Positions 6,202 through 41,021 of a DNA stretch of 41,749 bases are shown one piece after another. Under the pieces are notes generated by a model. It saw only the letters and a program-made list of their open reading frames with translations. It was not told the DNA's origin and searched no databases. The translations under genes and the position numbers were made by a program. The stretch lies in assembly GCA_030693415.1 (NCBI GenBank), contig JAUYAR010000080.1, positions 1-41,749 of the forward strand, in the 5' to 3' direction. The stretch's first letter is position 1; every line of letters begins with the position of its first letter. Source of the DNA: Candidatus Cloacimonadaceae bacterium. GTDB lineage: Bacteria; Cloacimonadota; Cloacimonadia; Cloacimonadales; Cloacimonadaceae.

Positions 6202-7776
6202 ATGAACATCGATCTAAACACGATCATTGTAGCTGCAATCGGTGCCGCGGGGGGATTTGTCCTTGCACTGATCATTTACCTCATCCGCCGCAACAACTCT
6301 TTCCGCTTGATCTCACAGGCAAAAGAAATCGCCGAGGAGATCAAAACCTCAGCCAAAAAGGAAACCGAAGCCGCTCGCAAATCCGCCATCCTCGAAGCGA
6401 AAGACGATTGGTTCAAACAAAAACGCACCCTGGAAGAGGAGATCAAGGAACGCCAGAGAGAGCTGCGTGCCCAGGAAAAAAAATATAGCGAACGCCTCGG
6501 CAGCCTGGACAAGCGGCTGGACTCTCAGGACAAAAAGGAAAACTACCTCAGCGAACAGGAACGCAAGCTAAAAACCAAAGAAGATGAAATTGCAAGCAGG
6601 AGTCAGGACGCAGAGCGCATTATATCCGACCAGCGCAAAAAGCTTTCCGAGATCGCCGGTCTGAGCCGCGAAGCAGCGATTCAGATCATGCGTGAGGAGC
6701 TGATCGGTCAAGCTCGTCAGGTAGCCGCAAACGATGCCAAGCTCACTATCGAACAGCTCAAACTGGACACTAACAAAAAAGCCGCGGATATCCTCTCCAC
6801 TGCCATCCAACGCATGGCGGCAGATTATGTTTCCGAGACCACGGTCTCCGTCGTATCCCTGCCTTCAGATGAAATGAAGGGTCGCATCATCGGTCGCGAA
6901 GGCAGAAACATCCGCACTTTCGAAAAAGCATCAGGCGTGGATCTGATCATCGACGACACTCCGGAAGCGGTGGTGCTATCCTGCTTCGATCCCGTACGTC
7001 GTGAAATCGCACGTCTTGCTTTGGGAAAGCTCATCTCCGATGGCAGAATCCACCCCGGCAGAATCGAGGAAGTCATCTCCAAAACCGGTAAGGAAATGGA
7101 GGAAACCCTCGTCAAGATCGGTGAAAAAGCAGTATTGGAAACCAATATCCACAACATCTCTCCAAATCTGATCAAGATTCTTGGACGGCTGAACTACCGA
7201 ACCAGCTATGGTCAAAACGTTTTGCAGCACTCGATCGAAGCAGCTTGGATCTGTGGAATACTGGCAGCGGAACTGGGTCTCGATCAAGAGATCGCGCGCC
7301 GTGCCGGCATGCTTCATGACATCGGCAAAGCAGTCGATCACGAATTTGATGGAACCCATGCCATCATCGGCGCCAACCTTGCACGCAAGAATGGGGAAGG
7401 CAAGCTCATTGTAAACGCTATCGAAGCTCATCATGAAGAAGTGGAAGCCACCTCCGTCTATGCCGTTCTGGTACAAGCCTCGGACGCCATTTCCGGCGCC
7501 CGTCCCGGTGCACGCAGAGAAATGCTGGAAACCTATATGCAGCGCCTCGCCAAGCTCGAAGAGATCGCCAATTCCGTAAACGGCGTCAATAAATCCTATG
7601 CCATCCAAGCAGGAAGGGAGCTGCGCATCATCGTGGAACCGGGCACCATAGAAGATTCCCAGACCTCGCTGCTCGCCACAGAAATCGCCGCTCAGATCGA
7701 AAAAGAAGTTCAATACCCAGGTCAGATCAAGGTTACCGTCATTCGCGAAACACGTCAAGTCGCCATGGCAAAATAA
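6202..7776 (+). CDS. rny: Ribonuclease Y
   Basis: RNase Y is the membrane-bound endoribonuclease that starts mRNA decay in bacteria lacking RNase E. The 524 residues show an N-terminal membrane segment (about 7-28, IIVAAIGAAGGFVLALIIYLI), a long charged coiled coil (about 30-200), a KH RNA-binding domain (GRIIGREGRN at 227-236) and an HD metal-binding domain (HD at residues 372-373 in MLHDIGKAVDHE). Length is typical. AAGGAA precedes the ATG. The stop overlaps the ymdB start by one base; rny-ymdB pairing is known in Firmicutes. Confidence 0.97.
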   Translation: MNIDLNTIIVAAIGAAGGFVLALIIYLIRRNNSFRLISQAKEIAEEIKTSAKKETEAARKSAILEAKDDWFKQKRTLEEEIKERQRELRAQEKKYSERLGSLDKRLDSQDKKENYLSEQERKLKTKEDEIASRSQDAERIISDQRKKLSEIAGLSREAAIQIMREELIGQARQVAANDAKLTIEQLKLDTNKKAADILSTAIQRMAADYVSETTVSVVSLPSDEMKGRIIGREGRNIRTFEKASGVDLIIDDTPEAVVLSCFDPVRREIARLALGKLISDGRIHPGRIEEVISKTGKEMEETLVKIGEKAVLETNIHNISPNLIKILGRLNYRTSYGQNVLQHSIEAAWICGILAAELGLDQEIARRAGMLHDIGKAVDHEFDGTHAIIGANLARKNGEGKLIVNAIEAHHEEVEATSVYAVLVQASDAISGARPGARREMLETYMQRLAKLEEIANSVNGVNKSYAIQAGRELRIIVEPGTIEDSQTSLLATEIAAQIEKEVQYPGQIKVTVIRETRQVAMAK

Positions 7777-9481: not shown

Positions 9482-9514
9482 AAAGATAAAATGACCGACA
9501 ATGTTTTGGGAGGA

Positions 9515-11923
9515 ATGATGCAAGTAAAGAGTATCAAGCTCTTAACCCTACTGTTAACAGTAACTTTGGCGCTGCTGATCTTCGGCGGATGCGGAAAGTC
9601 CGGCACGAGATTTGCCAATCTCGCACCCACGATCAGCATTACATCCTACGAGGGATTTGATGATAGCGCGCTCCTGGCACCCTATGCCAACACAGTTTTT
9701 TTGTTCCAGCAACGTATTTATTGGCATGCCACGGATCCGGACGGCATCATCACAGGTTTTGCATATCGCGTGAAAAACCAAAACGGTGATCCCATAGCCA
9801 CCCCCGGAAACCACTTTGTGGATATGGACGGCAGCGTCACTCCGCAAAACGTGCTTGATCGTTTCGGCCCCGGTTGGGTGATGCACTACATGCCAGGTGC
9901 CGATCAGAGCATTCCGCTTTCCAATCCAGAGGCGCGCCGCTGGGTCTGGACTTCTCAAAAATATGCCCTGATCAATTTCCCCGCTTCCGATGCCAACGGC
10001 AATCCGCTCACCCTCGAAAGCACCTTCGAAGTGATCGCCATCGACAACCGCGGCGAAATCACTCCGCTCGATCCAAATTATACAGCGCTGCACAGAAGTG
10101 TTGCCTGGCGCAAATTCAACGCCACTTCAGCACGCCCGAAATGTATCCTATCCACCACCAAGGGCAATCCCAACGGAGGCGCCGTCGGTTCGGGCATCAA
10201 ACTGATGTTTTCGATGAAGGATTATGATCCCTTTATCCCTGAAACCCCCTTCAAGTATGAATTCAGGATGCTTAAGGTGCACCCCACCACCGGAGCCCCC
10301 ATCGCGGGAACCGAAACAGAGTGGTTCAACACAAGTGGACAATACCGCTTGAGCGAATATCTCCTGACCCGCTATACTACTCCAGCCCTCACCTATGACT
10401 TTAACGCAAGCAACACCCTGATCTCCAAAACCAAAATCTTTGCCCGCGTTCAAGACCTTGCCGGGGTCGTGTCCTATGCCGATTCGGCATCGATCAATTT
10501 TGCCGTCAAGCCCGGTTTCCGGCCCAAGACCATGATCTATCCCCAGAAACTCTATGCCCTTGGAGACAACCACTTCATCGACTATTCTGATGAATCCACT
10601 CCGGAGATCTTTCCCTTCACCATCATCGGCGGAGCACAGAGATTTGCCACTGCGTTTTTCAAGGACATGGAAGGAAACACCACTGCGATCAACAGCAACA
10701 ACCTCAAGGTCTGGATACGTTGGGGATGGAGAGGTGAATACGGTACCCTGCCAGCCTCCGGAGTGCCCAACCCCACAGATAATCCTTATGATAAAAAACT
10801 GGACATGGTGCTTGATCGAGAAACCGGCGCAAACTATTTCAGCGAAATCACCCACTTTGATCTGCGGCTAAACGGAGAGCCCTACAATTTCCCGCCTTAT
10901 GCCAATAATATCATCACCGATGGCGACGGCAAGCGCTGGATCCGCATCCCGCAGCATTCGCCTCTTGGTCAAACAGTTGTATTGACGTCTCTCATCACTG
11001 ACACACACACTTTTGAAGTCCGTTGCGTTGACCTCCAGGGCGAAGTCGATCCCATTCCTGCGGTATTTTCATTCACGCTGCATGCCCCGATACCCAAAGC
11101 CCAGCGCGAGGGTGTCCTGATTATCGATGACGACTTCCACAACGCTGGCACTTCTCCGGATGCCACCGTAAATGCAAAATACGTGAACATGCTGTCCGAT
11201 TTTGTGGGAACCAAGACCTTTATCAAGCGCACCACCTCCGTCAACCTCCCAGGAAACACCTACCCCGATGGCAACTCGCGCAATTTTGCCACCAGCGACC
11301 TTCAGAAATACAAACTGGTCATCTATCACAACGACAATCCTGACGATACCGGAAACCTGAAGCTCGAAAACGACGGTCTGGTGCTCTATATGCATACCGG
11401 TGGAAACGTGCTCATCTCCCACACGGCGAAACTCTCGCAAGTGCTGGAATCTTTTGTGAAGTCAACTCAAAAGACCTTTTTGAGCTACTTCGGAGTTCCA
11501 TATCGAAGCAATCCCGCAAGTTTCATGAGCGCGGCTCTCCATATTCGTCCCATTTTCCAGAAAGCTGTGGGGCAAAACGCCTATCCGGACGTCAATCTCC
11601 AATGGGGTGCGACCGGAACGCCAGAAGCCAGCTTCAATTCGATCGTCAATGCGAGGCAAGGGCTTTCCACGATCACCTTTTTCCCTTTCGCGGAAGCAGC
11701 CTCCTATAACTTGAACAGGATCTATAACATGGGATTAAAACCGGTCACGTATCCTGTCTTTCCTCCCTCCCAAGCTGATTTTGACTTGTATAACAACAAG
11801 CCCATCGGCATCAGAAGCATCAACACCAACAACCGTTGCTACCTCTTCGGTTTCCCGCTCTCCTATATGCAGGACATGGATACCAAAGCGTTGATGAACA
11901 AGATCCTCAGCGAAATAATGTAA
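9515..11923 (+). CDS. Large lipoprotein of unknown function
   Basis: This 802-residue exported protein has a hydrophobic signal with a lipobox (LIFGGC, Cys26 when counted from ATG 9515), so it is probably anchored to a membrane facing the periplasm or outside. The body has beta-rich segments with Ig/fibronectin-like phrases (YRVKNQNGDPIATPG; FKYEFRMLKV) and, at about residues 535-680, an alpha/beta segment EGVLIIDDDFHN...VIYHNDNPDD...GGNVLISHTAK reminiscent of glutamine-amidotransferase-like or ThuA-like folds. GGGAGGA lies just before ATG 9515/9518; an upstream ATG at 9491 is also possible. It follows folD by a few bases and is closed by the terminator at 11946. Function unknown. Confidence 0.88.
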   Translation: MMQVKSIKLLTLLLTVTLALLIFGGCGKSGTRFANLAPTISITSYEGFDDSALLAPYANTVFLFQQRIYWHATDPDGIITGFAYRVKNQNGDPIATPGNHFVDMDGSVTPQNVLDRFGPGWVMHYMPGADQSIPLSNPEARRWVWTSQKYALINFPASDANGNPLTLESTFEVIAIDNRGEITPLDPNYTALHRSVAWRKFNATSARPKCILSTTKGNPNGGAVGSGIKLMFSMKDYDPFIPETPFKYEFRMLKVHPTTGAPIAGTETEWFNTSGQYRLSEYLLTRYTTPALTYDFNASNTLISKTKIFARVQDLAGVVSYADSASINFAVKPGFRPKTMIYPQKLYALGDNHFIDYSDESTPEIFPFTIIGGAQRFATAFFKDMEGNTTAINSNNLKVWIRWGWRGEYGTLPASGVPNPTDNPYDKKLDMVLDRETGANYFSEITHFDLRLNGEPYNFPPYANNIITDGDGKRWIRIPQHSPLGQTVVLTSLITDTHTFEVRCVDLQGEVDPIPAVFSFTLHAPIPKAQREGVLIIDDDFHNAGTSPDATVNAKYVNMLSDFVGTKTFIKRTTSVNLPGNTYPDGNSRNFATSDLQKYKLVIYHNDNPDDTGNLKLENDGLVLYMHTGGNVLISHTAKLSQVLESFVKSTQKTFLSYFGVPYRSNPASFMSAALHIRPIFQKAVGQNAYPDVNLQWGATGTPEASFNSIVNARQGLSTITFFPFAEAASYNLNRIYNMGLKPVTYPVFPPSQADFDLYNNKPIGIRSINTNNRCYLFGFPLSYMQDMDTKALMNKILSEIM

Positions 11924-12386: not shown

Positions 12387-12545
12387 CATCCGCAGCACCC
12401 TATTCTCCAAAGTGCTCGGATAAAACCATAGAATGTGCCATGCAGCCCCGTTCCTCCTTCCAAAGCGTTAATCAAGCCTTAATCAAGCGTTAGTTTAATT
12501 ACGCTTGATTAAGGCATGATTGACGCAGTCAAGTGGGAGAGCGGT
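12387..12545. repeat. Left island-flanking repeat with 26-bp-arm palindrome
   Basis: This stretch is a shortened, diverged direct repeat of 20110-20300. Shared blocks are ATCATCCGCA-CA-CCTATTCTCCA at 12387-12412, a CTCC segment, then the palindrome and GTCAAG-TGGGAG. The palindrome arms are 12464-12489 and 12502-12527 (26 bases, three mismatches), each made of an 11-base unit TTAATCAAGCS, around a 12-base loop. The loop (TTAGTTTAATTA) is the reverse complement, with one mismatch, of the loop in the right copy. Confidence 0.75.
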
Positions 12546-12754: not shown

Positions 12755-12886
12755 ATGAAAAAAATTATCGAAAATATCCGTAACATGTTGAAAAATGGTC
12801 TGTTCAAAGATGAACAGCATGTCCGTTTTTCACTGGTAAGAAGGCTGTGCTTTGAATTAGGGAGGGATTTTGCCGAGGATTTTTGA
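12755..12886 (+). pseudogene. 43-codon HsdR_N-like mini-ORF, probably a truncated remnant or leader
   Basis: A well-placed GAGGG (12746-12750) precedes ATG 12755. The 43 residues read KKIIENIRNMLKNGLF then KDEQHVRFSLVRRLCFELG, which resembles the first helices of the type I restriction HsdR N-terminal nuclease region (pattern L-K-x-G-x-F-x-N/D-E-x-x-V-x-x-x-L-V-x-R-L-L-x-E-L-G). It then stops (TGA 12884-12886) before any catalytic residues. It overlaps the TTG start of the helicase gene by 17 bases, and the helicase Shine-Dalgarno GGGAGGG lies inside it, so its translation may be coupled to the helicase. Either a decayed gene or a small functional leader; the HsdR link is by eye only. Confidence 0.5.
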
Positions 12887-15800
12887 CAATATTAACGATT
12901 CATTATTAACCTATCTTCAGAATACTCTTGAGCACTCATATAGAGCTGATTTCTGTGTAGGATTTTTCAATCTAAGAGGTTGGGCAAGCATTGATCACAA
13001 TGTAGAGAAGTGGCCGGGCTGGGATGGAGCATGCGCCAGAGTCCTTGTCGGAATGCAAAGATTGCCGGTTGAGGAGCTCAAAGCTGCCTTCAGAACTGAT
13101 GAAGATGGCATCAGGATGGATTTGAAGACCGCCTCGAGTCTCAGAAAAAAATGTGCGGAACAATTTAAAGAACAGCTATTGATCGGGATTCCTACAAATC
13201 GGGACGAAGCTGCACTACGCGAATTATCAGCTCAAATCAAATCAAAAAAGGTAATCGTTAAGCTGCACCTGTCCTTTCCTCTACATGCCAAGCTATACCT
13301 TATGCATAAAGAGGATAGTAATGCGCCAATAATAGGAGTAGTTGGCAGCAGCAATCTTACCATGTCCGGTTTGGAGCGTCAAGGCGAGCTAAATGTAGAT
13401 GTGCTGGATCATGACGCATGCAATAAACTCCAGAACTGGTTTGAGGAGAGATGGGCTGACCAGTACTGCATTGATATCTCAGCTGAACTTGCTGAAATCA
13501 TTGATAATAGCTGGGCTCGTGAGACGGCTATTCCACCATATCATATCTACCTCAAGATGGTTTACCATCTTTCCCAGGAAGCCAGAGCCGGGCTAAACGA
13601 ATTTAAAATCCCCAAAGTATTCAAAAACAAGCTCTTTGCTTTCCAACAAGCAGCCGTATTAATCGCAGCTAAAAAGCTATATAATCGCAATGGTGTTTTC
13701 ATTGGTGATGTAGTTGGCTTGGGAAAAACCTTCACTGCGTGTGCTGTGGCTAAGATATTTGAAGAGGATTATTACTATTCCACGCTGATAATCTGTCCGG
13801 CAAACCTCATCGAAATGTGGAAATCCTACATCGACGAGTATGATTTGAAAGCAGAAGTCCTCTCAATGAGTGCCGTTCAGAAAAATCTGAAAAATAAAAA
13901 ACGTTTCCGCTTGGTTATTATAGATGAAAGTCATAACCTTAGAAATCACAAGGGAGAACGCTATAAAGCAATAAAGACATACCTTAGCGAAAATGAAAGC
14001 AAAATAATGCTCCTATCAGCTACTCCATACAATAAGGATTACAAGGACTTATCAAATCAACTTCGGCTGTTTATCCCGGACGATCAAGATTTAGGGATTA
14101 GTCCGGAACGATATATCGATAGCATTAAAGGCTACCATCAATATGCCATGAAACACCCAGATACACCTATTCGCAGTATCAGGGCATTTGAAAAAAGTGA
14201 TTTCCCTGATGATTGGAGAGAACTGATCCGGCTCTATATGATCCGCAGAACACGGACTTTTATCAAAGAATACTATGCTATCCCAGATGATAATAATGAG
14301 TTATATCTTGAGTTTCCGGATGGTAAGAAGTCCTATTTCCCAGTAAGAACACCAAAAAAGCTTGGCTACGAGCTACCGGTAGAAGGTCAACAGGATCAAT
14401 ATACAAGGCTCTATAATGAAGAGCAAGTAGATCAGATCGGCTCTCTCAGTCTCCCGCGTTATGGACTTGCCGGCTATGTAGATGAATCCAAATGTAAACA
14501 TTTAAGCGCTGCAGAACAGAAAATAGTAGAGGATTTGTCCAGAGCAGGGAAACGGTTGATCGGGTTTTGCCGCACCAATCTCTTCAAACGTTTGGAAAGC
14601 AGTGGCTATTCCTATCTGCTCTCCTTATGCCGTCACATCCAAAGAAACTACATCTTTATCCATGCCATAGAAAATGAATTAGCTCTTCCTATCGGTAAGA
14701 ATTATACGGACGTGGTGAGTTCATTCCTCGATCTGGATGATTCAGACGATTTTGAAGACGATACAGATCAGGTTTCAGTCATCGAATTCAGCCACGATTC
14801 ACGCCTCTACAGCCAAAGAGCGATCGTATCCTACGAGTACTTCACGCAACCAAGCATAAGGAAAAGATTTGTTTGGATAGATAGCACATTATTCTCAAAG
14901 GGACTTTTGAAAGCACTAAAGGATGATACGGACATACTGATGGAAATAGTCGTGGCGAATTATAGCTGGGATCCCCAGCAAGACCGTCAGCTACAAGCTT
15001 TACGCAAGCTCGTTGTGGAAACCCATGCTCACGATAAGGTACTGATCTTCACACAGTTTGCAGATACTGCAAACTATCTATATCAGCAACTCAGCAAAAT
15101 GAATGTAGATCATATAGCTGTGGCAACTGGAGCCTCAGATAACCCCACTGAGCTTGCCAGGCAGTTTAGTCCCCTAAGCCATAACCGACATCAGACATCC
15201 AGGGATATCAGGGTTCTGATAGCTACTGATGTGCTGAGTGAAGGCCAAAATCTTCAGGATTGCCATATCATGCTAAATTACGACCTACCATGGGCAATTA
15301 TCCGTTTAATCCAACGAGCGGGACGTATTGACCGGATAGGTCAAAATGCCAAAGAAATCCAGTGCTACAACGTCTTACCTGAGAAGGGAATTGAGAAGAT
15401 TATCAATGTTCGAGCCCGTCTCAGTAAGCGCATTAGCCAGAACGCCGAAGTCTTTGGCTCGGATGAAGTTTTCTTTGCCGGAGATCCCACCAGTATTGTA
15501 AATCTGTATAACGAAAAAGCCGGTATTCTGGATGATGAACAAGATGCAGAAATAGATCTGGGTTCCTATGCCTATCAGATTTGGAAAAATGCCATTGATA
15601 AAGACAAAAATCTGGAACGTCTAATACCTGAGCTTCCCAATATCGTTTATTCCACTATGGAATCTAATGCTGAACCTGCTGGAGTAATAATCTATGCCCG
15701 AACAGTCCATGATAATGACGTCCTGGCATGGATGGACATCCATGGCAACCTGATCTCCCAATCACAAAAAAGAATACTTGAGGTGACAGCTTGTGGGCCT

Positions 15801-16211
15801 GATACCAAAGCCTTGCCAAAATTGGAGATTCATCATGAACTGGTCGGTAAGGGAATCGCTATTATCAACACTTCAGAGCGTGATACATCCGGCAGCTTAG
15901 GCAGAAAAAGCAGTATCAAACGGCAGCTTTACACCAAGCTGGATGAATTTATAAAAGAAAATGACGCCACTATATTTGTATCAACAGCCCTAAAAAAAGC
16001 TGTCGAAGCCATCTACCGTTATCCGCTGAAAGAAGATGCCAAAAACATTATCAGCCGCTATTTCAAAACCAAAGAGCCGATAGATGCTTTGGTAGGGTTA
16101 GTGGAATCATTCTGGGAAGAGAATAAACTTTGCACTGATCCCGATGATGGTAATCACTATGATGAGCCCCAAATCATCTGCTCCATGGGCTTGGTGAACA
16201 AGAAGGATTAA
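12870..16211 (+). CDS. PLD-family nuclease fused to SNF2/RapA-type helicase (restriction/defence)
   Basis: The 1113-residue protein joins two modules. The N-terminal 200 residues are a PLD-like nuclease with one HxK motif, HAKLYL at 139-144, followed by GSSN ending at 162. A superfamily 2 helicase follows: Walker A GLGKT with Lys286, DESH at 352-355, SAT motif, VLIATDVLSEGQNLQ and QRAGRIDRIGQ at 815-825, typical of SNF2/RapA proteins. Single-HxK PLD nucleases usually act as dimers. The start is TTG at 12870 (MPRIFDNI), which fits where the family usually begins and has GGGAGGG just upstream. The methyltransferase gene starts on the very next base after the stop. Together they suggest an ATP-dependent restriction system. 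Composition is more A+T-rich than flanking genes. Confidence 0.92.
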   Translation: MPRIFDNINDSLLTYLQNTLEHSYRADFCVGFFNLRGWASIDHNVEKWPGWDGACARVLVGMQRLPVEELKAAFRTDEDGIRMDLKTASSLRKKCAEQFKEQLLIGIPTNRDEAALRELSAQIKSKKVIVKLHLSFPLHAKLYLMHKEDSNAPIIGVVGSSNLTMSGLERQGELNVDVLDHDACNKLQNWFEERWADQYCIDISAELAEIIDNSWARETAIPPYHIYLKMVYHLSQEARAGLNEFKIPKVFKNKLFAFQQAAVLIAAKKLYNRNGVFIGDVVGLGKTFTACAVAKIFEEDYYYSTLIICPANLIEMWKSYIDEYDLKAEVLSMSAVQKNLKNKKRFRLVIIDESHNLRNHKGERYKAIKTYLSENESKIMLLSATPYNKDYKDLSNQLRLFIPDDQDLGISPERYIDSIKGYHQYAMKHPDTPIRSIRAFEKSDFPDDWRELIRLYMIRRTRTFIKEYYAIPDDNNELYLEFPDGKKSYFPVRTPKKLGYELPVEGQQDQYTRLYNEEQVDQIGSLSLPRYGLAGYVDESKCKHLSAAEQKIVEDLSRAGKRLIGFCRTNLFKRLESSGYSYLLSLCRHIQRNYIFIHAIENELALPIGKNYTDVVSSFLDLDDSDDFEDDTDQVSVIEFSHDSRLYSQRAIVSYEYFTQPSIRKRFVWIDSTLFSKGLLKALKDDTDILMEIVVANYSWDPQQDRQLQALRKLVVETHAHDKVLIFTQFADTANYLYQQLSKMNVDHIAVATGASDNPTELARQFSPLSHNRHQTSRDIRVLIATDVLSEGQNLQDCHIMLNYDLPWAIIRLIQRAGRIDRIGQNAKEIQCYNVLPEKGIEKIINVRARLSKRISQNAEVFGSDEVFFAGDPTSIVNLYNEKAGILDDEQDAEIDLGSYAYQIWKNAIDKDKNLERLIPELPNIVYSTMESNAEPAGVIIYARTVHDNDVLAWMDIHGNLISQSQKRILEVTACGPDTKALPKLEIHHELVGKGIAIINTSERDTSGSLGRKSSIKRQLYTKLDEFIKENDATIFVSTALKKAVEAIYRYPLKEDAKNIISRYFKTKEPIDALVGLVESFWEENKLCTDPDDGNHYDEPQIICSMGLVNKKD

Positions 16212-19200
16212 ATGATTAAAAGCACTTTTGCAACACTGGTCAGGGAATTCAACTTCAAAGAACTATTTAACCAAATGGGATGGGATAACGCCACCGGCTC
16301 GTTTGAAACAGACCTAAAAGGAACTATCTACACGGTCAGCGTTATCTGTGAAAAAAGCGGATTTCGCTTCTTGCAATGCTCTCCTCCAGTAGGATCGAGC
16401 ATTCCCCCAAAGAATGATAGACTCCGTATTCAATCTATTGTTAAACGCAGATACTATGAGCATTTGCTAATATTTATCGATGAAACAAAGCAAAGGCAAG
16501 TCTGGCAATATGCCTATAAGCCAGCGGGTAAGCCACTGAAAACCGTCATTACAGAGTATTACATTACCCAGGATCCCCAATTGCTTTATCAACGTACTGC
16601 AGGCTTAGTTTTTAGCATAGATGAGCATGAGAATATTACACTGGTCGATGTAACCAAACGGTTGAATGCTACCATAGATCAGAATTCTGAAAAGGTCACC
16701 AAGAAATTCTATGATGGCTTCAAAAAACAGCATACTAAGTTTCTATCCTTTATGACAGGGATAACAGAAGAGATTGATCGTAATTGGTATGCCTCAGTGA
16801 TGCTCAATCGGCTCATGTTCTGCTATTTCATCCAAAAACGTGGGTTCTTGGATAATAATGTGCATTATCTGATGAACAAACTTCAAGACGGACAGAGGGT
16901 GCGTGGTAGAGACCAATTCTATTCCTTCTATCGCAACTTTCTGCTTCATCTTTTTCATGAAGGACTCGGCTCACCTGATAGAGGTCGCTTCTCATCAGAA
17001 ATTGGCAAAATCCCCTATCTGAATGGGGGCATCTTCTCGGTGCATGAACTGGAAACTAAGTATGAGGGGCAGATCAAAATTACCGATGAGGCTTTTGAAT
17101 CTCTCTTTAAATTCTTTGAGGAATATCACTGGCATCTTGATACAAATGTAACTGCTACAGGAAGAGATGTCAATCCAGATGTTATCGGCTATATCTTTGA
17201 AAAATATATCAATGACCGGGCTCAAATGGGAGCGTATTATACCAAAGAAGATATTACCGATTACATAGGCAAAAATACAATACTGCCCTATCTTTTTGAT
17301 GAAGTGCAACGTAAATACCCCGATGCTTTCAAACCGGTGGGGGAAATCTGGCAAAAGCTCATGTCTAGTGAGGATCAGTTTATCTACAATGCAGTTAAAC
17401 ATGGAATTAACCCTGATGATGTCTGGCATGACCTACCTGACGATATCAAAGCCGGACTTGATCCAGAACAGATAAACCTTGTAGAGATACGGCGATGCTG
17501 GAACCGCCCTGCACCTTCAGATGCTGCTTTGCCTACAGAAATCTGGCGAGAGGTGATCACCAGGCGACAACGGTATATTGAGGTCAAAAAACTTCTCTCT
17601 AGTGGGAATATCACTCAGATAAACGACTTTATCACCTATAACCTTGATATTCGTCAATTTGCCCTTGACCTTATCTATGAAACAGATGATCCTAAGCTGG
17701 TTTTCCAATTTTACAATGCTCTGAAATCCATTACAATTCTTGACCCCACCTGTGGATCAGGGGCTTTCCTATTCGCTGCTATGAATATCCTGGAAGACCT
17801 CTATGAAGCCTGCATTAACCGAATGAAGGACTTTGTGCATGACAATCACGGGCATGGCACAAGCCACCTAAAACGGGAACTTGATATTGTTGATACCCCC
17901 TCTCACCCTAATCTGGAGTATTTCATCTATAAGAGCATCATTCTAAATAATCTCTATGGCGTTGATATTATGAATGAAGCAGTGGAGATAGCAAAGCTTA
18001 GATTATTCCTCAAACTCGTTGCTTGTGTTGACCCTGATCCTAAACATCCGAATTATGGATTGGAACCGTTACCGGATATTGACTTTAACATAAGGTGCGG
18101 GAATACTCTAGTTGGGTATGCTAATTGGGAAGAGATTGAAAAAGACATTGAAAGCGATGCTATATCTGCTGCTGAAAACAAAGAGATTATTCCAGAGATG
18201 TGCCAAAAAGTGGCTATGGCGTTTATCCAATACAAAGATATTCAACTGGAAGGCTATCAGGATTATAAAAACTTCGTAGTTGCAAAGTCTGAACTGCAAG
18301 ATAATCTGAAAGAACTTACTTCTCACTTAGATAAAATGCTATATCAACATTCAAACTCAGTGTCTTATAGTAAATGGAAAGAAGCACATCAACCCTTCCA
18401 TTGGTTTGCAGAATTCTACGAAATTATCCACGACAATGAAGGTTTTGGAGTTATCATTGGTAATCCACCGTATATTGAAACCACAAAGGTCAGTTATACA
18501 TTAGATAATTATAAAACTTGCCCGTGTGGGAATCTATATGCCTTAGTAATCGAAAGAGTGCACACAATTTCAAATAAAACAAGTTCGATATCTATGATTG
18601 TCCAGTTACCTATTGTATGTACTGACAGGATGATTCCATTACAAGAAATGCTTGTAGACAGGCACACGTGTTGGTTCAGCACCTTTGATGATAGACCGGG
18701 GAAGCTATTTGATGATTTACAGCATATTCGTGCAACCATTATTATTAGTAAATGTATGCAACCATCTCAGATTTTTACGAGCAAGTATAACAGATGGGTG
18801 TCTTCTACAAGGGAAAACCTGTTCAAAAATCTGTACTATTTTGAGACTGAACCAAAGCTGTATAGGGGAGCCATTGCTAAAATCGGTGGAAAGAGTTTTT
18901 TAACGATTGTGCAAAAATTGCTATTGATGAAAGGTAGGTTCACTAGCTGTATTACGGACTTTAAAGTACTTTACCATAATGCTCCACAATACTGGGTTAG
19001 AGCACTTGACTTTTCACCATACTTCTCAAGCGAGAAACTGGGGATAAGTGTCTCGACACAGGTTAAATCACTAACTGCTCGTTCAGAAATAGAGAAGATT
19101 TTTTTGATAGCAGTTGTTAACAGTAGTCTTTTCTATGTTTGGTTCATAGGCTTCTCAGACTGTCGCCACCTAAATCTTAGAGAAATAACATCTTTCCCGT

Positions 19201-19511
19201 ATGATATTGAATCTGTTAGTTCTGAGATATCTGAAAAGCTGGCAATCTCAGTATCTCATTTGATGGATTCTTATAATGCTCATAAATCGAGAGTAGTTGC
19301 AAATTATAAAACATCTGGTAGAGTTGAGTATGATGAATTCTATCCAAGGTTATCAAAAGAAACAATTGATGAAATTGACAATATATTAAGTGTTTACTAC
19401 AATTTTACTCCAGAAGAACTGGATTTTATCATTAACTTCGACATCAAATACCGCATGGGTAGTAGCTTAAATGAAAGAGATGATGACGATTTTCAGGACA
19501 GCGGGCAATAA
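16212..19511 (+). CDS. Large N6-adenine DNA methyltransferase (Eco57I-like), restriction-modification/defence
   Basis: The 1099-residue protein has the S-adenosylmethionine motif I DPTCGSGAF beginning at Asp511 and the catalytic NPPY at 751-754, in the order of gamma-class adenine methyltransferases (Eco57I, BREX PglX-like). An N-terminal part with KKFYDGFKKQH and WYASVMLNRLMFCYFIQKRGF (about 160-215) is typical of large stand-alone enzymes of this type. The region after NPPY should hold the target-recognition domain; its DNA (about 18480-19450) is visibly more A+T-rich than the catalytic part, suggesting exchange of specificity. The gene abuts the helicase with no gap, so the two are co-translated. 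Whether it also carries an endonuclease domain is unclear. Confidence 0.92.
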   Translation: MIKSTFATLVREFNFKELFNQMGWDNATGSFETDLKGTIYTVSVICEKSGFRFLQCSPPVGSSIPPKNDRLRIQSIVKRRYYEHLLIFIDETKQRQVWQYAYKPAGKPLKTVITEYYITQDPQLLYQRTAGLVFSIDEHENITLVDVTKRLNATIDQNSEKVTKKFYDGFKKQHTKFLSFMTGITEEIDRNWYASVMLNRLMFCYFIQKRGFLDNNVHYLMNKLQDGQRVRGRDQFYSFYRNFLLHLFHEGLGSPDRGRFSSEIGKIPYLNGGIFSVHELETKYEGQIKITDEAFESLFKFFEEYHWHLDTNVTATGRDVNPDVIGYIFEKYINDRAQMGAYYTKEDITDYIGKNTILPYLFDEVQRKYPDAFKPVGEIWQKLMSSEDQFIYNAVKHGINPDDVWHDLPDDIKAGLDPEQINLVEIRRCWNRPAPSDAALPTEIWREVITRRQRYIEVKKLLSSGNITQINDFITYNLDIRQFALDLIYETDDPKLVFQFYNALKSITILDPTCGSGAFLFAAMNILEDLYEACINRMKDFVHDNHGHGTSHLKRELDIVDTPSHPNLEYFIYKSIILNNLYGVDIMNEAVEIAKLRLFLKLVACVDPDPKHPNYGLEPLPDIDFNIRCGNTLVGYANWEEIEKDIESDAISAAENKEIIPEMCQKVAMAFIQYKDIQLEGYQDYKNFVVAKSELQDNLKELTSHLDKMLYQHSNSVSYSKWKEAHQPFHWFAEFYEIIHDNEGFGVIIGNPPYIETTKVSYTLDNYKTCPCGNLYALVIERVHTISNKTSSISMIVQLPIVCTDRMIPLQEMLVDRHTCWFSTFDDRPGKLFDDLQHIRATIIISKCMQPSQIFTSKYNRWVSSTRENLFKNLYYFETEPKLYRGAIAKIGGKSFLTIVQKLLLMKGRFTSCITDFKVLYHNAPQYWVRALDFSPYFSSEKLGISVSTQVKSLTARSEIEKIFLIAVVNSSLFYVWFIGFSDCRHLNLREITSFPYDIESVSSEISEKLAISVSHLMDSYNAHKSRVVANYKTSGRVEYDEFYPRLSKETIDEIDNILSVYYNFTPEELDFIINFDIKYRMGSSLNERDDDDFQDSGQ

Positions 19512-19956
19512 AGACATTTTGTCACTGCCAAAAACAAGCTTCCTTTGCAGCCGTAGGATATCTGCCACATGTGTGTTGCGCTCGTATGATTGGGCGATTT
19601 CACAAGTTAAAGCCGGCAATTGTGTCATTGGTGGCTTTCATAGCAAAATTGAAAAGGACGTACTTCATTTCCTCTTAATGGGAAGTCAACCCCTTATCAT
19701 AGTCCTTGCCCGAGGATTCTACATAAGATGGCAGCCAGAAATTAAAACAAGATTAGATAAAGGTAACCTGCTAATCATCAGCCCCTTTGAGGATAGCGTC
19801 CAAGTGGTGACACCGCAGACTTGCTTGATCCGTAATAAACTGATAATTGAACTGGCAGACAAACTTGTGATTGGTCATGCAAGTCCTAATGGACAGATTT
19901 CCAAGCTTCTCAAGGCTGTGGATAAACCGGTGGAGTATTTGGATAAAGAAATCTAA
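19471..19956 (+). CDS. DprA-like Rossmann (SLOG) protein of the defence operon
   Basis: The 161-residue protein matches the core of the DprA/Smf Rossmann fold: GNCVIGGFHSKIEKDVLHFLL (where DprA has SG-x-A-x-G-x-D-x-x-A-H), PLIIVLARGF, LLIISPF and RNKLIIELADKLVIGHAS (DprA RNRIIAGLS). It lacks the N- and C-terminal helical parts of DprA. It overlaps the end of the methyltransferase gene by 41 bases, so it belongs to the same operon; ATGs at 19480 and 19483 are alternative starts. DprA binds ssDNA and loads RecA, whereas SLOG relatives act as nucleotide sensors in defence and signalling loci. Which role applies here is unknown. Confidence 0.82.
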   Translation: MKEMMTIFRTAGNKDILSLPKTSFLCSRRISATCVLRSYDWAISQVKAGNCVIGGFHSKIEKDVLHFLLMGSQPLIIVLARGFYIRWQPEIKTRLDKGNLLIISPFEDSVQVVTPQTCLIRNKLIIELADKLVIGHASPNGQISKLLKAVDKPVEYLDKEI

Positions 19957-20173: not shown

Positions 20174-20300
20174 TTCTATCCCTCGTCTCTCCCAAACCAC
20201 AGCGTTAATCAAGCCTTAATCAAGCCTTAATCAAGCGTAATAAAACTAACGCTTGATTAACGCTTGATTAACGCTTGATTGACGCTGTCAAGGCTGGGAG
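20110..20300. repeat. Right island-flanking repeat with 37-bp-arm palindrome
   Basis: This is the longer partner of the repeat at 12387-12545. The palindrome arms at 20201-20237 and 20250-20286 are 37 bases with three mismatches, each containing three tandem copies of the 11-base unit TTAATCAAGCS. The 12-base loop TAATAAAACTAA is the reverse complement (one mismatch) of the left copy's loop, although the outer flanks of both copies run in the same direction. A cruciform could form. Confidence 0.8.
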
Positions 20301-24796: not shown

Positions 24797-27700
24797 ATGA
24801 AATTATATATCATCCTGTTGGCACTTGTTCTGCCTCTCCTTTTGGGAGCGACAGGGATGCAGGTGCTGGAACAAAGCGGAAATGAGCTGCTGATCGAATT
24901 CACCCTGCCCGAATATGAGATCGGACATCAAAACCTGAAAGGCGCAACCTGGCACAAGCTAATGAGCGAGTATGGCAGCATTGATTCACAAGAGGGCTTC
25001 CCGGAACTGCTCGTTTTCGGCGAAGCGGTGGCGGTCCCCATCGATGGAGACATCTCCATTCAGGTGTTAGGCGTCAAAAGCTCGGTGATCAGGAATATCA
25101 ACCTGATGCCGTCACCCAAAATGGTATTAAGCGATTATGAAGTGGACTATGTATTTTATCAGGATGCCGCTGCATATAACAGCAGCACGGCATATCCTCA
25201 TCAGATAGTGCAAAAGGGGGAATCCGCCTTTATCGGAGACCGCAGATTCGTCCCATTGCGCATCTTTCCTTTCCAATACCGCGCCGCGAGCAAAGAACTG
25301 GTCGTGAATTCCCGGATCAGTATCTGCGTGACGATCCATGGGACGAAGAATCAATCAAAAAACTGGATGCTCTCGGAAAACCCCGTCGATCCGGTCGCGG
25401 ATAGCTTTTTCCTGAACAATGCCACATCAAAAAGCTGGCGTCTTGAAAAAACCAGCGATCAAAGCTATGAATCCCCCAAGAATGGAACAAGCACGGTCAA
25501 CGAGATCCAGCTTGTGGTCGATAAGGAAGGCATCTATAAGGTCACCTATACCTATCTGAACAATTTGATCAACACCATGGTCGATTCCCTGGGTGTCCAA
25601 TTGGCATGGAATCTGAATACGCTCGATCCTCGCTATCTGGAACTGAAAGATAAAAACGGCTCCGTCCCGATCCACTTTTTTGGAGAATCGGACGGCAGTT
25701 TCGGTGTCAATGACTTCTTTGAGTTTTTTGGCGACCGAAACTATGGCGATACTGCTTGGATGGATGATTATACCGCCGAAAACGTTTATACCCTTTCCCT
25801 CAAAAGCAGCTTGGGAGCGAGAATGGCGGTGGAAAACGGTGGCTTGGTCGTTTCCAATCCGGCTCAGTATATAGTTCCAGACGCTTATGAGGAAACTGTG
25901 CACTTTGAGGAGCAATTGGTCAGCGACAAACTGGGACGCGGATGGAGCGCCTTGAATCCTGAGTATTATCGGGAAGATGTGTGGTTTTGGAAAAAGATCA
26001 GCGCTCCCAATCTGGATATCGTCCCCATTGAGCTTCAATATCCCAGAGAAAGCACGATCCGAACCGCCAGCGCCAAAGTGGTATTGTTCGGATTATCATA
26101 TTCCGAAACTATTCTGCCCAACCAGTATGATCACGAAGCATCCGTTCGCATCAACCAGGCAATGATCAATTCTCATACCTGGAGGGGGCAAGCGGAAATG
26201 ATCTTCAACAATCAAAATCCCATCCCCAACTCATTTTTGAGACACGGCACCAATCATATTTACATCAGCCTTTCCGGAAATACAGTTTCCGGAGACCGCG
26301 AACAGGTGCTGCTGGACTACGTCGAGATCAAATACTGGCGCGAGTATAAAACCAATCAGGATTGGATCAAGTTTTCCAAGCCTTCCAACCGTCCGGCAGG
26401 GCTCTACCAATTTCAGGTGGAAGGTTTTCCCAATGCCAATGTCTCGGTATATAAGATCGGCTCCAGCATCTTCAACAATCTGCAGATCGAGCCCTTTAGT
26501 TTGGGCGGTATGGCACCCTGGACAGTCACTTTCCAGGATAGCGTATCATCAAATGCGGTCAGATACTATGCGGTTTCAGAAAACCAGAAAATGACCCCCA
26601 AATTCAGCCGTTTGAACCTACCGTCCAATCTTAAAAACCCCAATAAGCAGGCTGACGTCATTCTGATCACGACATATCCATTCCTCGAGGCAGAGGGCAC
26701 TAATATGCTCAAAACCCTGTGGGAATCAAATGGATACGGGGTGACAAAAGTAGATGTCCAAGATATCTTTGATGAATTCAACAGCGGGATCAGATCGGCG
26801 AAATCGATCAAGGACTTCATCACTTATGCGTATAACAATTGGAGCACTCCGCAGCTCAGACACGTTGTTCTTCTGGGAGAAGGGGTCGATGATGAAAGGG
26901 ACTTCAGTCCCTCAAGACAATATGCCCTGATTCCGGTGAAAAAGACCTGGACATACAAACATGGCGCCACTGCCAGCGATAATTGGTATGCCTGCATCGT
27001 CGGGACCGACACGGTGCCGGATATCTCCATCTCCCGCATCGGAATCTGGAGGGAAGACCAGATCCTTGCCTATGCCAACAAAGCGGGTCAATATCGGAAC
27101 AACCCTCTGACCTCGAGACTTTGGAGCAGCCATCTGACCTTTGCATCAGGAGGAAAAATATCCGATCCTAACAATATCTTCGCCCACCAATCGGAACGCA
27201 TCCGCAGAAAAAGCGTTCCAAAAGACTATCGTGTGACCAGAGTTTATACTTCCGCGCAAGAAGTGAGCCCTGATTATTTCGGCGGGACATTCGCACTGAA
27301 AGACGCGATCAATAGCGGCACCCAATATCTTCAATTTATGGGACACGGCGGAGGACGCATCTGGGCGGATTATAACCTTTTTAATTTCAACGATGTGGCG
27401 ACCCTGAACAATCAAGCCTATCCGATCGTGCTCAGCTTGGCTTGCTATGCTTCCGCTTTTGACACAAATGGCTCTGCCTCGATCAGCGAAGCGCTTGTAT
27501 TGCAGCCAAATAAAGGCGCGATAGCCGCACTTGGATTCACCGGATTGGGCTATCTATACCAGGATGAAGATTGGGGTTTGGCTTTCACCGAAGCGTTGTA
27601 CAAACACAATTTCCCATCCGTCGGAGAAGCTTTGCAGTTTGCGCTGGCAAAGTTCTATACCACAACCTCTACCAGTGCCGCCAGGTACGCGCTGACCAAC

Positions 27701-29806
27701 GGGGCATCCTATTTGGGCGATCCATTGATCAAAACGCGCAAACCCATAGGTGGCATCCCTATTGATGCGGTGAGCTATGTTTTGCAGCCCGGCGATACGC
27801 TCAGAGTGAGTGCCCAGTTTCCTCCCTCGGTCACAGCCGCGCGTCTGTTTATCATGAAACAAAACGAAAAGACGATCAACGTCCCCTTCGACCTGCCTGT
27901 GATCCAGGGTAATTTCAATGCCACCTGGGTGATCCCGGTAAATCAGGGAACGAATTATTCGCGTATCATCTATGTGGCGGGCTATTCTTCAAACGAAGAA
28001 TACATCGGCAGAGCCGCATTCGGTGTGGGACGCTCTGCCATCTTCCATCATGCGCTGGAGCCGGCAAATCCGGCATGGACGGATTCGACGAAATTTATGG
28101 CAAAAGTATTTAGCAATGAGGATATCCTATCCCTGATCTGCAAAGTCCGCACGGACAGCACCAACACAACCATCACCTGGGTGAATCTGCCCATGCAGCC
28201 ACATCCGACCCTGGCAAATACCTATATCACCACTCAGAGGCTGCCGGGGCAGATAACGGGCAAGGAAATCTTCTACAAGTATGTTCTAACCACCAGTGTG
28301 AGGACATCTGAAACCTTCCTCGAAAGCCATGTCTATCGCGGACCGGATCTTTTCCTTCGGGACATCAGGTTGGTCTCGGATAATGATAACATCGTGCTTC
28401 AGGTGCTGGCTTCCAACATCGGGGACGCGCCATCGATCACTACCGACCTGAGGTTGTATTATACGGCGAGCGGTGGTTCCCAAATCCTGCATTCGACACA
28501 GGATATCAGCGGATTGGGCGTCAACGAACAGCGTTGGGAAACGATCCAGCTTACAGGATTGCCGGCTGCCAACATGAGCGTCGAGGTTCGGGTGAACTGG
28601 TCAAATACTTTCCCTGAATGGCATATTTTTTACAATACTAACAACATGATCTCGATGAGCTTGCCTTTCAACTATCACAACATCGGATCCACCGGCGGGG
28701 TGATCAGCAGCATAGATAACAACATGACCTGCGAGATACCGGACAATCTGATTCCGGTAAATCACACTTCCGTATTCTACGTCCACAATCTAAGCACTCT
28801 GGCTGCAAACAACCAACCCGACATATCTCCGATCAAGCTCCTTTCCTCCGATGCCTCAGGCACCGCTGTCTCATCCATCCCATACGAGATCAAAACTCTC
28901 GATTCCAGCATCGTGGATTCCACCGGAACCTTTATCAACGGCAGACGCATCAAACTGACATATTTCTACAGTGCAGCCGACGCCGAGACCCAGAGCTTCG
29001 AAACCGAGAATTCATACAAGATCTATCGCTGGGATGATCGAGGCAGAAAATGGATACTGCAGGGTGGTAATATCTCCACTACCGAAAACCGCGTGGTCTT
29101 TGAAGTCAACAAACAGGGTATTTATACGATCTATCGAAATAGAGATAGAATCCGACCCTCGATCGACGTCAACGTCCAGGATCAGGAATTCACTATCGGC
29201 GGCTATGTTTCGGGAAAGGGTACGATCTCGCTGCTGCTCAGCGATTCTAACGGAATTGATGTGTTTGACAACTCCATCCGGCTTCACATGAATGGAATGC
29301 CCGTTCCGGAAAGCGACTATGTGACCTCGATCAATCTCGACAACATCAACCGCATTCCGATCAAGTATCAGCTCAACCTGAGCAGGGGCAACTATACCCT
29401 CGTGGTCGATTGCAAGGATGTCAATGGCAATTTCAACACCCGCGAGATCCAGTTCAGAGTAAACGAGACCTTCAACATCACCAATATCGGCAACTATCCA
29501 AATCCCGTGCTGGGAATAGCAGATGACCCTAAGAACTACGGCAGAACCAGATTCACCTATGTGTTGACCGACGATGCCAGTGAGGTCACGATTAAAGTCT
29601 ATACTGTTAGTGGAAGATTGGTCAAGACCTTTGCAAACTTGCCATCGGGAGTGGGATATCACGAGTTTCCCCGATCTCTTTATGGTTGGGATTGTAAAGA
29701 TGAATATGGCTTCAATCTGGCAAATGGAGTCTATTTCTACAAGATCATCGCCCGTCAGGGAAACAAGAAAATCGAAAAAACCATGAAAATGGCTATCCTG
29801 AAATAG
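24797..29806 (+). CDS. porU: PorU-like C25 (gingipain-family) cysteine protease with FlgD/Por-type C-terminal domain
   Basis: The 1669-residue exported protein has a signal peptide (1-18), a beta-rich N-terminal part, a peptidase C25 domain (about 618-980) and a C-terminal FlgD-like/type IX sorting domain (about 1558-1669, with NYPNP, TIKVYTVSGRLVKTF and GWDCKDEYGFNLANGVYFYKI). The catalytic pair is visible: His850 in FMGHGGG and Cys883 in LSLACYAS. Their 33-residue spacing equals that of His211/Cys244 in gingipain R. A PorV-like gene follows 8 bases later. PorU is the type IX secretion sortase and pairs genetically with PorV, so this is probably the PorU homologue, though it is longer than the roughly 1150-residue Porphyromonas protein; a secreted protease is the alternative. 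Confidence 0.88.
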   Translation: MKLYIILLALVLPLLLGATGMQVLEQSGNELLIEFTLPEYEIGHQNLKGATWHKLMSEYGSIDSQEGFPELLVFGEAVAVPIDGDISIQVLGVKSSVIRNINLMPSPKMVLSDYEVDYVFYQDAAAYNSSTAYPHQIVQKGESAFIGDRRFVPLRIFPFQYRAASKELVVNSRISICVTIHGTKNQSKNWMLSENPVDPVADSFFLNNATSKSWRLEKTSDQSYESPKNGTSTVNEIQLVVDKEGIYKVTYTYLNNLINTMVDSLGVQLAWNLNTLDPRYLELKDKNGSVPIHFFGESDGSFGVNDFFEFFGDRNYGDTAWMDDYTAENVYTLSLKSSLGARMAVENGGLVVSNPAQYIVPDAYEETVHFEEQLVSDKLGRGWSALNPEYYREDVWFWKKISAPNLDIVPIELQYPRESTIRTASAKVVLFGLSYSETILPNQYDHEASVRINQAMINSHTWRGQAEMIFNNQNPIPNSFLRHGTNHIYISLSGNTVSGDREQVLLDYVEIKYWREYKTNQDWIKFSKPSNRPAGLYQFQVEGFPNANVSVYKIGSSIFNNLQIEPFSLGGMAPWTVTFQDSVSSNAVRYYAVSENQKMTPKFSRLNLPSNLKNPNKQADVILITTYPFLEAEGTNMLKTLWESNGYGVTKVDVQDIFDEFNSGIRSAKSIKDFITYAYNNWSTPQLRHVVLLGEGVDDERDFSPSRQYALIPVKKTWTYKHGATASDNWYACIVGTDTVPDISISRIGIWREDQILAYANKAGQYRNNPLTSRLWSSHLTFASGGKISDPNNIFAHQSERIRRKSVPKDYRVTRVYTSAQEVSPDYFGGTFALKDAINSGTQYLQFMGHGGGRIWADYNLFNFNDVATLNNQAYPIVLSLACYASAFDTNGSASISEALVLQPNKGAIAALGFTGLGYLYQDEDWGLAFTEALYKHNFPSVGEALQFALAKFYTTTSTSAARYALTNGASYLGDPLIKTRKPIGGIPIDAVSYVLQPGDTLRVSAQFPPSVTAARLFIMKQNEKTINVPFDLPVIQGNFNATWVIPVNQGTNYSRIIYVAGYSSNEEYIGRAAFGVGRSAIFHHALEPANPAWTDSTKFMAKVFSNEDILSLICKVRTDSTNTTITWVNLPMQPHPTLANTYITTQRLPGQITGKEIFYKYVLTTSVRTSETFLESHVYRGPDLFLRDIRLVSDNDNIVLQVLASNIGDAPSITTDLRLYYTASGGSQILHSTQDISGLGVNEQRWETIQLTGLPAANMSVEVRVNWSNTFPEWHIFYNTNNMISMSLPFNYHNIGSTGGVISSIDNNMTCEIPDNLIPVNHTSVFYVHNLSTLAANNQPDISPIKLLSSDASGTAVSSIPYEIKTLDSSIVDSTGTFINGRRIKLTYFYSAADAETQSFETENSYKIYRWDDRGRKWILQGGNISTTENRVVFEVNKQGIYTIYRNRDRIRPSIDVNVQDQEFTIGGYVSGKGTISLLLSDSNGIDVFDNSIRLHMNGMPVPESDYVTSINLDNINRIPIKYQLNLSRGNYTLVVDCKDVNGNFNTREIQFRVNETFNITNIGNYPNPVLGIADDPKNYGRTRFTYVLTDDASEVTIKVYTVSGRLVKTFANLPSGVGYHEFPRSLYGWDCKDEYGFNLANGVYFYKIIARQGNKKIEKTMKMAILK

Positions 29807-40633: not shown

Positions 40634-40830
40634 ATGGAATTACCGACGTCCCCGTCGGTTCTTGTCCGCAGGATCGGTTACATACTTGTGGATGATAGAC
40701 TAAACTTGTGGATGATAGACTAAACTTGTGGATGATAGACTAAACTTGTGGATGTGTCATGTTCATCGCTATTGTCGCCTATGGGATAGAGTTTCGTGTC
40801 GCCGACGGGGACGTCGGCGCTCCATGAGAT
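40634..40830 (+). repeat. Hairpin-bounded repeat element, copy 1
   Basis: The 197-base unit starts TATGGAATT and a hairpin ACCGACGTCCCCGTCGGT, then carries four copies at 20-base spacing (40687, 40707, 40727, 40747) of TGTGGATGA/T, one mismatch from the DnaA box TGTGGATAA. A conserved spacer follows and a closing hairpin CGCCGACGGGGACGTCGGCG. Both end hairpins share an inverted core. No coding frame is supported. Confidence 0.85.
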
Positions 40831-40843
40831 GAAGTTCCATGAT

Positions 40844-41021
40844 TATGGAATTACCGACGTCCCCGTCGGTTCTTGTCCGCAGGATCGGTTACATACTTGT
40901 GGATGATAGACTAAACTTGTGGATGATAGACTAAACTTGTGGATGTGTCATGTTCATCGCTATTGTCGCCGATGGGATAGAGTTTCGTGTCGCCGACGGG
41001 GACGTCGGCGCTCCATGAGAT
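40844..41021 (+). repeat. Hairpin-bounded repeat element, copy 2
   Basis: The 178-base unit is nearly identical to copy 1 and in the same direction, but has three instead of four 20-base iterations (DnaA-box-like 9-mers at 40898, 40918 and 40938). The size difference is about one iteration. It ends 8 bases before the stop codon of the minus-strand gene at 41030. Confidence 0.85.

Follow-up and report, generated by a model that had tools for sequence, protein, structure and literature searches.

What is a stand-alone DprA-like protein doing directly behind a nuclease-translocase and a methyltransferase, and do the three genes belong together? The question is raised by a locus in the window, which is the whole stretch of 41,749 nucleotides analysed here (Candidatus Cloacimonadaceae bacterium, GenBank assembly GCA_030693415.1, contig JAUYAR010000080.1, positions 1 to 41,749). 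The source genome (G000, window contig C80) has 2.8 Mb and is 99.8% complete; close relatives are metagenome-assembled genomes of Cloacimonadota. Gene 1 of the trio encodes a PLD nuclease fused to an SNF2/SF2 translocase, gene 2 an N6-adenine methyltransferase and gene 3 a SLOG protein (Table 1). With a probability of about 0.68, we read the trio as an ATP-dependent restriction-modification operon that has a DprA/ShosA-like regulator as partner.

All three open reading frames (ORFs) are full length and intact. As an initial annotation of this DNA had stated, genes 1 and 2 are separated by 0 bases and genes 2 and 3 overlap by 41 bases. Its left end at position 12755, however, lay about 115 bases too far upstream. 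The ATG at 12755 opens only a 43-codon ORF in a different frame, with no Pfam match, and was rejected as the start of gene 1. The fusion begins at TTG 12870, where the 92% identical protein of the relative G014 has an ATG behind AAGGAG, and its homologues share the N-terminus M-[PA]-[RK]-I-[FY]-DNI. With 12870 as the start, the numbering that the annotation had given for H139, K286 and N751 is right, and all three residues are invariant in 24/24 homologues. Compared with G014, all three genes are under purifying selection, with ratios of nonsynonymous to synonymous substitution (dN/dS) of ~0.05 for gene 1, ~0.08 for the methyltransferase core and ~0.1 for gene 3, the last being approximate at a high synonymous distance of 1.36.

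Gene 1 was matched by the Pfam families PLDc_2 (38.6 bits), RE_NgoFVII (35.7), SNF2-rel (49.4) and Helicase_C (60.8). H139, N162, E173, K286 and DESH are kept in 24/24 homologues and K141 in 23/24. The predicted structure has an SNF2/RapA fold with a predicted local distance difference test score (pLDDT) of 78. No SRA or B3 target-recognition domain was matched by Pfam, and no SRA protein was among the 50 Foldseek matches listed for the model. Over residues 109-857 the protein matches the PADLOC candidate C3a139 (HKD+Snf2) with 181 bits, and it is 92-93% identical to its counterpart in G014.

Gene 2 falls into the Eco57I/MmeI methylase class of Pfam, and the NPP of its NPPY motif is invariant in 24/24 homologues. 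The PADLOC model REase_MTase_IIG (PDLC03628) matches it end to end (960 bits over 9-1087). No conserved PD-(D/E)XK pattern was found in residues 1-174 across 24 homologues. Tested as a Type IIG enzyme, gene 2 thus shows the full-length model similarity but no sign of an active PD-(D/E)XK nuclease of its own, which makes gene 1 the likely cutter. A PDB sequence search with genes 2 and 3 gave no match. M.Ssp6803V of Synechocystis (bipartite GGA-N7-TTGG) was considered as evidence for gene 2 and dropped, because it is Slr6095, annotated in a Type I system on pSYSX, and was taken as another gene than the gene 2 homologue at locus L004. The PLD-SNF2 fusion and the NPPY methyltransferase of the initial annotation are therefore both confirmed, by Pfam domains, invariant catalytic residues and an intact motif, and with them the parts of its ATP-dependent restriction system.

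Gene 3 stays below the cut-offs for DprA (22.1 versus 29.6 bits for PF02481, 19.6 versus 191 for TIGR00732) and matches PADLOC PsyrA weakly (34.9 bits). An AlphaFold model built from 53 homologues reached a pLDDT of 94. Foldseek placed this model with ShosA 8zva (E 2e-8) and with DprA 3maj, 3uqz and 4ljk, at E values from 2e-8 to 1e-6. The model thus predicts a DprA-like Rossmann/SLOG fold, in agreement with the stand-alone DprA-like core proposed before. Only the SLOG core domain is present; gene 3 has neither the N- nor the C-terminal domain of full DprA. Conserved positions are GN, FxCSR, SGFHSxxEK, AR and RN. Identity to DprA of the same phylum is 23-27%, and by sequence these proteins form a family of their own.

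To determine how regularly the genes occur together, homologues were counted across genomes, with the ORFs of relatives called mechanically and many loci stopping at contig ends. Of 125 Cloacimonadota genomes, 6 have the methyltransferase, 5 a close SLOG homologue (E below 1e-30) and 4 both (hypergeometric p 7.6e-6, or 1.3e-4 with the own genome excluded). For 396 genomes of Bacteroidota the corresponding numbers were 11, 17 and 10 (p 9e-15; 1e-10 without the three seed genomes). When GTDB genomes were scanned with the SLOG alignment, 80 loci from many phyla were obtained, 77 of them with a SLOG ORF. Of these 77 SLOG loci, 39 have a methyltransferase homologue upstream in the same orientation, and none has one downstream or on the opposite strand. 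Where at least 9 kb of upstream sequence was available, the methyltransferase or PLD-SNF2 gene was present in 21/34 loci, and the PLD-SNF2 homologues at SLOG loci share 46-57% identity with gene 1. The three genes are not neighbours by chance; they form a widespread operon with gene 3 as a regular partner. The initial annotation had treated the genes as one unit, which co-occurrence and fixed order across genomes now substantiate. It had named a lack of co-occurrence of the third gene as grounds against its proposal; gene 3 does co-occur with genes 1 and 2 elsewhere.

Further arrangements were seen around this operon. PLD-SNF2 and methyltransferase pairs without a SLOG gene are found on plasmids of Pelobacter and Synechocystis, further relatives of PLD-SNF2 occur in Anabaena, Rhodococcus and Microbacterium, and a plasmid search with gene 3 gave no match. 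A remote version of the trio, about 21-30% identical to the window genes, was observed in G091 (L034 659-9642) in the order SLOG, methyltransferase, DUF6577/AbiEii (AbiE) pair, PLD-SNF2. It sits in an apparent cell-division cluster of this Cloacimonadota genome, between the presumed murG and murC genes, and related SLOG-methyltransferase pairs at L030, L031 and L033 come after murG; we assume these mur identities from the sequences themselves, no database search having been made. In two Cloacimonadota genomes (L026, L028; L071, L105), SLOG, a free methyltransferase tail (see below) and additional genes lie behind apparent grpE-dnaK-dnaJ genes, which suggests a common integration hotspot.

We then compared evolutionary distances in 20 complete loci. 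Distances of PLD-SNF2 and methyltransferase cores correlated at r=0.93. SLOG correlated with the PLD-SNF2 and methyltransferase cores at r=0.57 and 0.62, values reached in 0/5000 permutations; gene 3 is thus a long-term partner of genes 1 and 2. Methyltransferase residues 800-1050 have a mean identity of 0.27 and did not follow PLD-SNF2 (r=0.13, p=0.09). A similar gradient was seen against G014, whose methyltransferase is split between two contigs and was treated as one gene: identity was 92% for gene 1, 86% for the methyltransferase core, 79% for gene 3 and 49% for the C-terminal part of the methyltransferase. Since the target region does not co-vary with PLD-SNF2, specificity probably resides in the methyltransferase. 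Gene 1, having no recognisable target domain and staying the same while the gene 2 target region varies, probably acts in complex with the methyltransferase.

A working mode can be proposed from motifs and precedents. Gene 2 would methylate adenine in a target sequence determined by its variable C-terminal region, thereby marking host DNA. Gene 1 would cleave unmarked DNA, with the SNF2 motor spending ATP on moving along or remodelling DNA and with PLD domains from two protomers building one nuclease site, as in enzymes of the BfiI/SauUSI type. It would probably borrow the specificity of gene 2 by forming a complex, following Type I/III logic. Gene 3 is probably a regulator that binds a nucleotide or single-stranded DNA and holds back or permits the action of the nuclease and of any additional effectors, by analogy with ShosA and PsyrA. 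This role is preferred because DprA homologues serve as antitoxins in shosTA, psyrTA and rqlHI (PMC9122126), although it is the least certain step of the mechanism.

No description of the exact three-gene set was found in the open-access literature, and the initial annotation had likewise known none. Membership in DISARM, NgoAVII/CglI, SauUSI and Type-2 BREX-related (BR) systems was tested, and each fails at least one defining feature. A closer published relative than DISARM or NgoAVII/CglI is Type-2 BR, in which an HKD/PLD nuclease stands at the N-terminus of an SWI2/SNF2 helicase next to an N6-adenine methyltransferase (Rakesh and Krishnan 2026, PMC12839542), as in the trio. BR loci include a DUF499 ATPase, which is not found in the trio locus, and DUF3780 accompanies it in the locus in 98% of taxa (PMC12839542). 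The main text of that paper does not contain the terms SLOG or DprA. The sole PF04465 match of the genome is a separate DUF499 gene on another contig (G000:C55 31166-32149, 121 bits), which may indicate that the genome has a second system, related to BREX, at a different site. DUF3780 was not matched in the own genome, and the control genomes gave no match either.

The likeness to DISARM that had been noted initially extends to a DrmD-like domain in gene 1 (145 bits, strongest in the C-terminal lobe of the helicase) and, in gene 2, to a methyltransferase core resembling DrmMI (76 bits). However, no drmA, drmB or stand-alone drmC lies beside the operon; the upstream gene has no PADLOC match, and proS (proline-tRNA ligase), cinA and purD follow downstream. 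The equally suggested NgoAVII/CglI systems also combine a PLD nuclease, an SF2 ATPase and a methyltransferase, and are ATP-dependent. They do so with separate PLD and DEAD-Z1 ATPase proteins, an R protein carrying PLD and B3, and a C5-cytosine methyltransferase (PMC4267653), whereas in the trio one protein holds both PLD and SNF2, neither a separate R protein with B3 nor any B3 match is found, and the methyltransferase is of the Eco57I/NPPY amino type. A close relation is therefore not supported. SauUSI, a Type IV enzyme, shares with gene 1 the PLD nuclease and SF2 ATPase in a single chain, its HxK site being made by two protomers; it is modification-dependent and reads 5-methylcytosine through a C-terminal SRA domain (PMC7913695). 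Gene 1 differs in having no SRA match and an operonic adenine methyltransferase alongside. ShosTA and PsyrTA share the ShosA/DprA fold with gene 3, but no phosphoribosyltransferase domain is encoded in the window operon and gene 3 is the core SLOG domain only. The PADLOC models PDLC03628 and C3a139 are single-gene models and cover neither the pair, nor the SLOG gene, nor the cargo slot described next.

Between methyltransferase and SLOG, 31/39 loci carry at least one extra ORF of at least 100 amino acids, while 8/39 carry none, as in the window. These cargo ORFs lie on the operon strand in 62/65 cases. Cargo was typed for a sample of loci (Table 1). In relatives the interval is thus a slot whose defence or toxin-antitoxin genes are interchangeable; in the window it is empty. 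Auxiliary or backup effectors next to BREX and BR cores have been reported (PMC12839542); a cargo slot closed by a SLOG gene was not found described in the open-access literature. One cargo protein (L151 8122-9627) combines a cytidine-deaminase-like domain with a RecG-C-type ATPase region, is weakly similar to PADLOC models associated with prokaryotic Argonautes and is possibly an undescribed effector.

The final ~50 residues of the methyltransferase (SKPIIDEIDKVLAQHYGFTEEELDFIINYDIKYRMGKEL) are highly conserved, the preceding region not. Free copies of this tail, with the rest of the gene absent, were detected at 21 loci of the SLOG scan (15 without and 6 with a methyltransferase); L086 has a frameshifted true tail only, leaving 21 of 22 tail-positive loci. 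Free tails are invariably on the operon strand and mostly directly ahead of a cargo gene or SLOG; L088, for example, reads methyltransferase tail, DUF1016, tail, DUF1016, tail, SLOG. Over about 36 bp, free copies match the tail DNA consensus like true tails (0.82-0.89). Outside this stretch the match decays, sharply on the 5' side, from 0.69 to 0.36 within 30 bp. As a control, 24 methyltransferase and 11 PLD segments were searched in the same way. The tail segment alone yielded free copies at more than 2 loci; the other 23 methyltransferase segments of 50 residues, conserved catalytic ones included, gave 0-1 loci. Because of this control, and because extra tails lie between cargo genes where the methyltransferase persists, ordinary pseudogene decay was rejected as a full explanation, although it does account for L066 and L106. 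A dispersed genome-wide repeat was also rejected, since each of 42 genomes had 0-2 copies and the reversed control none.

Two other arrangements bear on this point. On the viral contig L149, a ShosA homologue (282.6 bits) comes after a C-terminal methyltransferase remnant, and in G133 the methyltransferase is followed by a different DprA-like protein of 214 amino acids; DprA-like genes have thus been placed behind the methyltransferase more than once. At L049, an ORF between methyltransferase and DUF1016 (6564-7274) runs with its C-terminus into a tail copy; we take it to resemble a REP-associated tyrosine transposase. From the sequences we read the tail pattern as the outcome of insertions that took place repeatedly at the methyltransferase 3' end. 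The main alternative, a translational leader retained after deletions, leaves extra tails unexplained where the methyltransferase is still present. A tentative model, on the doubtful side of even, is that the ~48-bp methyltransferase 3' end serves again and again as an insertion or recombination point for defence or toxin-antitoxin cassettes, which are added and exchanged there and leave tail copies behind. The DprA-like gene would be the fixed far end and might mediate recombination during the uptake of cassettes, and the window would show the empty state.

Several points weigh against a restriction-modification operon with a regulatory gene 3. Gene 3 is absent from the examined plasmid relatives of gene 1 and from G060, and the core pairs without it mean that it is common in the family, not obligatory. 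The antitoxin analogy is one of predicted fold, and known DprA-like antitoxins pair with phosphoribosyltransferase toxins or helicase toxins of another type, none of which is in the operon. The putative complex of methyltransferase and PLD protein is deduced from co-variation, and the target region, at 27% mean identity, is so diverged that a weak correlation could be masked. No published experiment on any family member was found in the open-access literature. A possible but rather unlikely alternative is a restriction-modification system of two genes only, with SLOG as an independent antitoxin or defence gene that partners the cargo and was orphaned in the window by cargo loss. Cargo does stand ahead of SLOG in 31/39 loci with both genes, many SLOG loci have cargo and no methyltransferase, and DprA-like antitoxins are known elsewhere (PMC9122126). 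However, SLOG lies directly behind the methyltransferase and free of cargo in 8/39 loci, in G174 and in the window, where it is under purifying selection (dN/dS ~0.1). It also co-varies with PLD and methyltransferase, and since the cargo families are mutually unrelated, one SLOG family would need to neutralise very different toxins.

Unlikely is a role of SLOG as repair or recombination helper, which would, as DprA does, bind single-stranded DNA produced by the translocase-nuclease, load RecA and reduce self-damage. The DprA fold is retained together with the SR, SGFHS and RN positions equivalent to those of DprA, but the N- and C-terminal domains are missing and the family is distant from DprA of its own phylum. 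That gene 1 alone restricts modified DNA in a Type IV-like manner, with the methyltransferase in another role, is improbable: the PLD-SF2 single-chain layout is that of SauUSI (PMC7913695), whereas an SRA match is lacking and the pairing and co-variation with the methyltransferase are close (r=0.93). Least probable is a decayed or silent system retained by chance. Free tails and fragments of PLD or methyltransferase genes show that decay is frequent in relatives; in the window, however, none of the three genes is truncated, their catalytic motifs are intact and their dN/dS is low.

The surroundings of the operon were also inspected. The 43-codon ORF just upstream of gene 1 (12755-12886; MKKIIENIRNMLKNGLFKDEQHVRFSLVRRL...) presumably resembles the start of type I HsdR-like proteins and may be a remnant. 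The upstream neighbour (9491-11923) is an intact ORF of 810 amino acids with no match in Pfam, NCBIfam or PADLOC. A gingipain-like C25 peptidase of 1669 amino acids with a propeptide and an FlgD-type Ig domain is encoded at 24797-29806. A palindromic repeat built on GCGTTAATCAAGCCTTAATCAAGC lies on each side of the operon (12465-12526 and 20202-20285) and has 127 matches in the 2.8-Mb genome (64 forward, 63 reverse); it looks like an element of the REP (repetitive extragenic palindromic) or MITE (miniature inverted-repeat transposable element) type. Another palindrome, GCCGACGTCCCCGTCGGC, has seven copies in the window (12175, 20326, 20378, 40642-41009), where none is expected by chance.

Table 1. 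Features of the three-gene operon in the window, and cargo types seen between the methyltransferase and SLOG genes of relatives
Feature	Locus	Position	Strand	Remark
Gene 1: PLD nuclease-SNF2/SF2 translocase fusion	window	12870..16211	+	1113 aa, TTG start
PLD nuclease domain, BfiI/NgoFVII-like H139xK141...N162...E173	window	12870..13469	+	residues about 1-200
SNF2/SF2 ATPase core: GLGKT (K286), DESH (352-355), QRAGRIDR	window	13632..15479	+	residues about 255-870
Gene 1 C-terminal region, no assigned function	window	15480..16208	+	about residues 871-1113
Gene 2: Eco57I/MmeI-type N6-adenine methyltransferase	window	16212..19511	+	1099 aa
S-adenosylmethionine (AdoMet) motif DPTCGSG	window	17742..17762	+	residues 511-517
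Catalytic motif NPPY	window	18462..18473	+	residues 751-754
Presumed target-recognition region, hypervariable	window	18609..19361	+	about residues 800-1050
Conserved gene 2 3' tail (DFIINFDIKYRMG...)	window	19422..19469	+	recurs as free copies in relatives; single copy in this genome
Gene 3: stand-alone DprA/ShosA-fold SLOG protein	window	19471..19956	+	161 aa
Cargo DarT+DarG	L150			
Cargo AbiLi/AbiLii	L081			
Cargo DRT UG5-nitrilase	L062			
Cargo HerA	L073			
Cargo AbiU	L102			
Cargo PDC-S19/DUF3644	L109			
Cargo RhuM/PDC-S05	L098			
Cargo PDC-S31	L152			
Cargo Fic/Doc	L155			
Cargo MqsA/SocA-like	L075			
Cargo DUF4238	L082			
Cargo Schlafen AlbA_2	L065			
Cargo YhcG/DUF1016	L050			
Cargo Bro-N cluster c3	L051			typed on L051; members L041, L052, L059
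Cargo Hsp70-like protein	L038			
Cargo MTaX1-HNH	L153			

Should the repeated tail prove to be a genuine insertion point, it would provide a within-operon way of swapping defence genes, of which no description was found in the open-access literature. A slot that holds many unrelated known defences (DarTG, AbiL, AbiU, DRT, HerA) together with unassigned genes can serve as a guide to new anti-phage genes. The role of DprA-like proteins has been called elusive for non-competent species (PMC9122126), and a widespread restriction-modification family with a regular DprA/ShosA-like partner offers a concrete setting in which to probe such proteins in defence.

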